A stretch of 64,000 nt of DNA from Verrucomicrobiia bacterium (GTDB taxonomy: Bacteria > Verrucomicrobiota > Verrucomicrobiia > Limisphaerales > JADLHS01): positions 1 to 64,000 of the forward strand of contig WYBW01000124.1 in the NCBI GenBank assembly GCA_011525685.1, given 5' to 3'. Below are positions 19,320 through 30,956 of this stretch, piece after piece. Under the pieces are notes generated by a model, which saw nothing but the letters and a program-made list of their open reading frames with translations, did not search any database and was not told the origin of the DNA. Within the stretch, counting starts at the first letter, position 1, and each line of letters begins with the position of its first letter. The position numbers and the translations under genes were made by a program.

Positions 19320-19401
19320 ATTCAAAACGGAACCGGGGGAACGCTCTGGCCATTACAGCCCACAACGCCGATCTGCTGGCCGGTGTAAAATGGGCCGGAC
19401 T

Positions 19402-19457
19402 CCGGAGGAGCGACTTACCAGTCGCCTGGGTTTAAGGCGGCTGGTAAGCTGCCTCCC
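19402..19457. repeat. Imperfect hairpin repeat
   Basis: Arms GGAGCGACTTACCAG and CTGGTAAGCTGCCTCC flank a second stem GCCT/AGGC. It lies 83 bp after a stop codon and could also act as a 3'-end structure. There is no T-tract. Confidence 0.5.
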
Positions 19458-19595
19458 CCGGTAGGCTGGCAGTCTTGCGCAAATCTGGGATTCTCCTTGG
19501 GACAGGGTCTGTGGCAATGGCAGTTCGCAATGTCTGACCGCAGGCAAGAAAGCCTCTTGCCGGGAGACGGCCGTTCGTCCAGAAAAGTGCCCGGC

Positions 19596-25245: not shown

Positions 25246-25343
25246 GTTACATCCAACCTCACGCGGCGAGCCTGCGCCGGGCGGAGTGAATCGTCAAGCG
25301 TGGAGGACCTCGCAGGCAAAGCAAAGCGTACGCTGAGTTCCGG

Positions 25344-25352
25344 GTGCGATTG
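25344..25352. repeat. Target-site duplication, left copy (GTGCGATTG)
   Basis: A 9-bp direct repeat identical to 25566-25574. It sits immediately before the first terminal inverted repeat of the MITE-like element. Confidence 0.75.
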
Positions 25353-25565
25353 GGGCGCATCTCAGATTATTGCAGGCAGGCATTCCTGGCGTAGCGCAGG
25401 TTTCCCAACCTGCGGTATCGCCGACTTCCAGTCGGCTGGCCCAGGCACGGCGTGGCAGGCGAGGAATACGCAGCGTTTGCGGATTGGAAATCCGCGCCCC
25501 GGCAGACTGGAAGTCTGCGCTACGGCATCGCCTCGGCGCCCCCTGCAAGAAACTGAGATGCGCCC
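25353..25565. mobile_element. MITE-like element, 213 bp, copy 1
   Basis: Bounded by perfect 13-bp terminal inverted repeats, GGGCGCATCTCAG and CTGAGATGCGCCC, and by 9-bp direct repeats GTGCGATTG. It has no coding capacity. Inside are four short hairpins, each with a loop of three or four bases: GCAGGTTTCCCAACCTGC, CGACTTCCAGTCG, CGGATTGGAAATCCG and GCAGACTGGAAGTCTGC. A second, inverted and diverged copy is at 30732-30944. The layout is that of a non-autonomous element moved in trans by a DDE transposase not present in this window. Confidence 0.75.
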
Positions 25566-25567
25566 GT

Positions 25568-25690
25568 GCGATTGAAAGTGGCGATCCGTGGGGTGGAAAG
25601 GCTCGCGCTGCGAGCCGTAGCGCCGCGTGCGGCGGAGTGCTCGCAGCGCGAGCACAGCCGACTCCCGAATTGCCCGCCACTTTCAATCGC
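25568..25690. repeat. Second inverted-repeat element, 123 bp, next to the MITE
   Basis: Perfect 15-bp inverted arms GCGATTGAAAGTGGC and GCCACTTTCAATCGC enclose two further hairpins (GCTCGCGCTGCGAGC and GTGCTCGCAGCGCGAGCAC). The left arm overlaps the right target duplication of the MITE, so the MITE probably inserted into the edge of this older element. Confidence 0.65.
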
Positions 25691-25785
25691 GCCCCCGGGT
25701 TGTTGGCGACCGCCAAGCCATTCGCGATTGAGGCATGCGACAACCAGGTCGGGTTGCCGCCAGCGTGGGCAACCCGCATTTCCAA

Positions 25786-30731: not shown

Positions 30732-30944
30732 GGCGCATCTCATTTTCTTGCGGGGGTGCGCCGAGGCGATGCTGTAGCGCAGACTTCCAGTCTGCCGGAT
30801 CGCGGATTTCCAATCAGCAAACGCTGCGTACTCCTGACCTGCCACCCCCTGCCTTGGCCAGCCGGCTGGAAGTCGGCGATACCGCAGGTTGGGCAACCTG
30901 CGCTACGCCAGGAATGCCTGCCTGCAAATAAATGGAGATGCGTC
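30732..30944. mobile_element. MITE-like element, copy 2 (inverted, diverged)
   Basis: The same 213-bp layout as 25353-25565 read in reverse, with the terminal repeats decayed (GGCGCATCTCA and TGGAGATGCGTCC). Its four hairpins are GCAGACTTCCAGTCTGC, an imperfect GGATTTCCAATC, CCGGCTGGAAGTCGG and GCAGGTTGGGCAACCTGC. No clear target duplication is visible. It lies between nuoA and the DUF1638 gene stop. Confidence 0.7.
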
Positions 30945-30956
30945 CACCGGCTGACC

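Follow-up and report, generated by a model that had tools for sequence, protein, structure and literature searches.

A short repeat filled with hairpins, at 25344-25574 of the window (the whole stretch of 64,000 nucleotides that was analysed), raises two questions. What moved it, and where does its interior come from?

A 213-bp element and its copies in the host genome

The element itself (copy 1) spans 213 bp at window positions 25353-25565. The initial annotation had described perfect 13-bp inverted ends, a 9-bp duplication and an interior of four TTCCA/TGGAA-loop hairpins without a gene; all of these features were recovered at 25344-25574 (Table 1), the hairpin loops reading TCC(C) or GGA. 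With a length below 500 bp, terminal inverted repeats (TIRs) and only spurious ORFs inside, copy 1 has the size and structure of a miniature inverted-repeat transposable element (MITE). The peptides DWKSAI and QTSSLP, pointed out earlier as possible contaminants of protein annotations, indeed occur in spurious ORFs over the element, but no Pfam family made of them was found, and none of five ORFs over the repeats matched a Pfam model. Contamination by naive ORF calls is plausible, and where Verrucomicrobia gene models contain such peptides, these probably stem from translated repeats.

Table 1. Features of the two window copies, of the element surrounding copy 1 and of a second MITE type in the host genome
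Feature	Position	Strand	Basis or remark
Left 9-bp target-site duplication GTGCGATTG	25344..25352	.	same letters as 25566-25574
Left ISKra4-type end: 13-bp TIR GGGCGCATCTCAG and subterminal ATTATTGCAGG	25353..25377	+	like ends of the 1.47-1.50-kb ISKra4-family ISs L202, L176, L187, L317
GTAG-tagged REP array (REPIN-like cassette), GTAG...CTAC, four hairpins and spacer	25391..25523	.	133-bp unit also alone, without ISKra4 ends, in the host genome (G000) and relatives
Hairpin 1, CGCAGGTT-TCCC-AACCTGCG	25395..25414	.	sequence
Hairpin 2, GCCGACT-TCC-AGTCGGC	25420..25436	.	sequence
Hairpin 3, GCGGATT-GGA-AATCCGC	25479..25495	.	sequence
Hairpin 4, GCAGACT-GGA-AGTCTGC	25502..25518	.	sequence
Right ISKra4-type end: 13-bp TIR CTGAGATGCGCCC and subterminal CCCTGCAAGAAA	25541..25565	-	like right ends of ISKra4 insertion sequences
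Right 9-bp target-site duplication GTGCGATTG	25566..25574	.	sequence
Gene-less surrounding element, left 20-bp TIR hit by copy 1 (GGGTGCGATTGAAAGTGGCG ... CGCCACTTTCAATCGCGCCC)	25342..25694	.	restored sequence and related ends elsewhere
Copy 2, older, inverted MITE copy	30732..30945	-	90.7% identity, worn ends
Second MITE type	L007 470-629, L055 1331-1489, L082 1364-1522, L071 1573-1702		shared ends

The letters duplicated at copy 1 are part of the 20-bp TIR of the surrounding element. This element has hairpins of its own and related ends in three other loci (L038, L104, L255); in one of these, L104 of genome G017, such ends enclose a GTAG array. An Rfam search over the element neighbouring copy 1 returned sub-threshold microRNA matches only. 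The diverged inverted copy reported earlier, copy 2, is indeed present, aligning with copy 1 over 214 columns with the hairpin order unchanged. Its ends are still recognisable (GGCGCATCTCA...GGAGATGCGTCC), and no convincing 9-bp duplication flanks it.

We then considered the whole host genome, a draft of 6.73 Mb in 199 contigs whose assembly breaks at these repeats. The pattern GCATCTCA-N165..195-TGAGATGC matched 47 times and its reversed control 0 times, a difference far greater than chance would give. At least 40 near-full-length copies with at least 92% identity were found among the best 40 of 237 candidates scored. Single ends with up to two mismatches numbered 148 (control, 0), from which the number of elements can be put at roughly 70. 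Among 54 copies, the 9-bp duplication was perfect in 30 and matched at 8 or more of the 9 positions in 47, and the duplicated sequences were nearly all distinct, as expected of a MITE. The earlier MITE-like reading is thus supported, since other copies keep the ends and their duplications mostly differ. The youngest copies deviate by 1.4% from the consensus. Because the same-genus genome G001 contains only 6 such ends, the expansion is recent on the scale of the genus. Insertion points fell within ORFs of at least 200 aa in 52% of cases, as compared to 93% of random points; they avoid ORFs and are mainly intergenic.

Two tandem MITE pairs were seen in the host genome, one in C42 (L014/L076 1-327) with an 8-bp spacer identical to the target duplication, the other in C55 (L044 1501-1850) with a 9-bp spacer. 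Circular intermediates have been reported for the transposase group of ISKra4 (PMC3942029). The pairs possibly reflect circular or dimeric intermediates, recombination being equally possible. A second MITE type has the same ISKra4 ends and another hairpin interior (GGGGCGGCTTACCAGCCGCC); its L007 copy is flanked by the duplication CATGAAAAC, and a remnant-like match to it lies at window 19397-19469.

Empty sites were searched for by joining flanks. In L064, a type-A copy interrupts another MITE, of which L082 and L055 carry uninterrupted relatives. Neither window copy has a clean empty site in G001, where sequence or gene order has changed. The genes flanking the two copies match G001 at 81-90% with the junction replaced or rearranged: the gene beside copy 1 matches at 90%, the sequence beyond it differs and the element is absent, and the flanks of copy 2 are split across two contigs. 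In the sister species the junctions are rearranged at each of the two window insertions, so the empty-site comparison suggested in the initial annotation succeeded with repeat paralogues only.

Full-length partners and other interiors behind the same ends

A scan for GGGCGCATCTCANTTTCTTGCA over 84,980 species genomes returned at least 93 stretches; most of the matches listed were labelled as Verrucomicrobia groups. When the ends among these matches were paired, dozens of elements of 78-305 bp were obtained, many with 9-bp duplications, together with three end pairs of 1473-1474 bp (L202, L176 and L187). In each of the three, a single ORF of 472-473 aa matches the ISKra4 transposase model. A fourth full-length element, L317, of 1500 bp, was found in G004, a genome from the host's family; it shares the ends, has a 482-aa ORF and is flanked by the duplication AACCTGATC. 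Against the curated NCBIfam model NF033572, with its cut-off of 205 bits, L202 (233.5), L176 (209.7) and L317 (208.5) score above the cut-off and L187 (173.6) below it. The check proposed at the outset thus succeeded in relatives, where full-length elements combine these ends with a transposase. The 9-bp duplication is perfect in two of the four ISs, L317 and the 1474-bp L202 (TGCGGCACA); none was found at L187, and L176 begins at the border of the available DNA.

The inverted ends of these ISs measure at least 25 bp (GGGC...GCCC). They fit the family's length range of 18-39 bp and its final C, and p-MULT elements, including the ISKra4 group, have been described with inverted repeats of 18-39 bp and duplications of 8-9 bp (PMC3942029). 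Residues D218, D307 and E422 are invariant among the transposases of the four relatives and, judging from this alignment, would fit a DDE triad.

An ISKra4 match was present in 32 of the 57 genomes searched, the host being included in the search and without a match; protein and model searches of its assembly returned not even a fragment of an ISKra4 transposase. MITE activity in the host is therefore deduced from the relatives. The transposase may have been lost from the host genome, or not assembled. Many host contigs start or stop within a copy of this MITE (for example L084-L090, L046, L067 and L080). Such breaks limit the assembly, and an autonomous copy may accordingly be hidden. The host's DDE_Tnp_1 (PF01609) transposases were considered as partners and rejected: 0 of 7 have MITE ends, and the DDE_Tnp_1 gene adjoining one copy (C31) is part of another element that the MITE had hit.

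Clustering distinguished more than 20 unrelated interiors within the same ends, strong palindromes for the most part. When 27 representatives were folded, about 20 interiors were more stable than their shuffles (z at or below -2, and below -7 for several). The remaining ones, mostly short or of the 132-bp types, did not fold more strongly than shuffles. An independent burst was found in G048, a genome of another family, with 137 ends. Its elements (L326-L337, 155-278 bp) carry two other palindromic cargoes (GTGGGGCAGGCTTCCAGCCTGCC... and AATAGCCCAGCACTTCAGTGCTGGG...), and some of their motifs resemble free-standing GTAGGGCAGGCTTCCAGCCTGC repeats of other relatives. We tentatively propose, at somewhat less than an even chance, that ISKra4-type ends are a general carrier in Verrucomicrobia which has repeatedly engulfed families of palindromic repeats, so that one element comes under both a DDE and an HUH system and palindromic cargo is favoured. 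Such cargo could be of advantage, for instance, by helping end synapsis or by insulating transcription; it may be favoured or merely common.

The interior as a GTAG array found elsewhere

The whole element was searched against 56 relatives. Matches were obtained in 28 of them, nearly always limited to element positions 38-172 and without the ends. In copy 1, GTAG at 25391-25394 and CTAC at 25520-25523 bracket the four palindromes; a variable spacer separates the first two hairpins from the other two, which are inverted. By its sequence, this array is built like a REPIN or a pair of GTAG-tagged REPs (PMC3733652, PMC3116915). GTAG repeats have been reported as highly enriched in another member of the Verrucomicrobia, Opitutus terrae.

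Arrays standing alone gave 24 hits in the host loci and many in the relatives. These counts come from an alignment-based listing; a first automatic listing was too loose, consisted mostly of chance matches and was discarded. The free-standing arrays lack the 9-bp duplication, their flanks agreeing at best in 4-6 of 9 positions as compared to 8-9 for most MITE copies. At positions 1012-1749 of locus L300, which spans G000:C1:14800-16817, the host genome carries a gene for a REP-associated tyrosine transposase (RAYT) with 133-bp GTAG arrays on both sides. The encoded protein is a Y1 transposase of 245 aa (REP_Tyr_transpos, E 6.6e-21), whose 74.7 bits lie slightly below the cut-off of 80. The arrays on either side of this gene stand in tandem.

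A tree was built from 74 arrays, and in it the 33 element-borne arrays of the host all group together among the free-standing ones with a support of 96/75, 31 of the 33 doing so with 96/90. The alignment has 134 columns only and the tree is poorly resolved overall; one further row labelled as MITE, L102 (G005), owes its label to a loose end match. The single array clade means that the simplest reading is one capture followed by amplification through the ISKra4 ends. The initial annotation rightly saw hairpins inside the element and took them for MITE filling; they rather appear to be a separate mobile repeat of the GTAG REP/REPIN type that has been captured.

Alternatively, the hairpins could have been born inside an ISKra4 MITE, free arrays being escapees or decayed MITEs. 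In Coxiella, small REP-only copies of QMITE2 without TIRs exist and are read as truncated MITEs (PMC5896051), a precedent for such an origin. However, about half of the relatives contain free arrays, among them genomes without ends such as G008 (7 array hits, 0 ISKra4-end sites), and these arrays are far more diverse than the element-borne arrays of the host, which make up one clade among them. An internal origin is thus unlikely.

Less probable still is that the whole 213 bp is a long REPIN or BIME moved by the RAYT, with ends resembling ISKra4 by coincidence. The GTAG-tagged interior would agree with this, as would the presence of a RAYT gene between such arrays in this genome. Nevertheless, the 9-bp duplications are found at element copies and absent at free-standing arrays, and the ends are common to ISKra4 ISs and to more than 20 unrelated interiors. 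To our knowledge, HUH transposases of the RAYT group leave no target duplication. Finally, one could think of a fixed structural repeat (a terminator or an array that binds proteins) which recombination has spread without a transposase. The strong hairpins and the preference for intergenic sites would suit this reading, but it is hardly credible: the ends are precise, the 9-bp duplications mostly differ from site to site, there are insertions into other mobile elements, and the host has 148 end sites as compared to 6 in the genome of the same genus.

Proposed origin and comparison with known systems

We conclude that the window element is very probably an ISKra4-derived MITE with a REPIN cargo, moved in trans, whose array was captured once. 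The observations behind this conclusion are the ends, the duplications, the copy number, the autonomous ISs of relatives, the free arrays, the array-flanked RAYT gene and the single array clade. In the proposed mechanism, a transposase of the ISKra4 family (p-MULT 4, Mutator-like DDE) would act in trans on ends of about 25 bp, GGGCGCATCTCANTTT(C/A)TTGCAGG, and would cut the target with a 9-bp stagger, which would give rise to the 9-bp duplications. One GTAG array, of the kind associated with RAYT (tyrosine, HUH) transposases, would have been enclosed once by ISKra4 ends, a capture step that we infer from the array tree; an empty precursor, which would measure about 80 bp, did not turn up in the DNA examined. 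The ISKra4 transposase would then have multiplied the chimera, giving about 70 copies that are mainly intergenic. Transposition itself is likewise inferred.

This reading joins two classes of small repeats that are usually studied apart, DDE-mobilised MITEs and RAYT-associated REPs or REPINs, and offers a concrete way for REP arrays to spread that needs no transposase of their own. It explains the large load of dispersed repeats and the contig breaks in these genomes. It also supplies a defined, if putative, assay pair consisting of an ISKra4 transposase and its natural 213-bp substrate.

ISKra4 elements, REPINs and MITEs are already known, as is a GTAG-REP-containing MITE in Coxiella (PMC5896051). 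Outside subscription papers and ISfinder, no literature was found on ISKra4 MITEs or on Verrucomicrobia MITEs, and none matched an ISKra4-derived Verrucomicrobia MITE superfamily with exchangeable palindromic cargo, one such cargo being a REPIN-type array whose own RAYT lies in the same genome.

The ISKra4 or p-MULT 4 ISs (Guerillot et al. 2014, PMC3942029) have long, near-perfect inverted ends and 8-9-bp duplications like the window element, and the transposase of the matching full-length elements matches NF033572; unlike them, the window element is gene-less. The phylum list of that paper does not include Verrucomicrobia, nor does its text use the word MITE. In Porphyromonas gingivalis, a MITE also has another repeat type as its interior; according to the accessible part of the report (PMC4596501), the cargo there is a tandem minisatellite and not a mobile REP.

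QMITE2 of Coxiella burnetii (PMC5896051) is a MITE of 150-190 bp with 7-11-bp duplications and a GTAG REP inside. The window element fits this plan, a GTAG REP within a TIR element with duplications of about 9 bp; the likeness is structural and no common descent is claimed. The accessible part of its report describes no four-hairpin array, autonomous partner or interior exchange for QMITE2. REPINs and GTAG REPs with their RAYTs (PMC3116915, PMC3733652) share with the window array the GTAG tag, inverted palindrome pairs around a spacer and arrays flanking a RAYT gene. The window array differs from them in that it has two hairpins per half and rides in an unrelated, DDE-type MITE.
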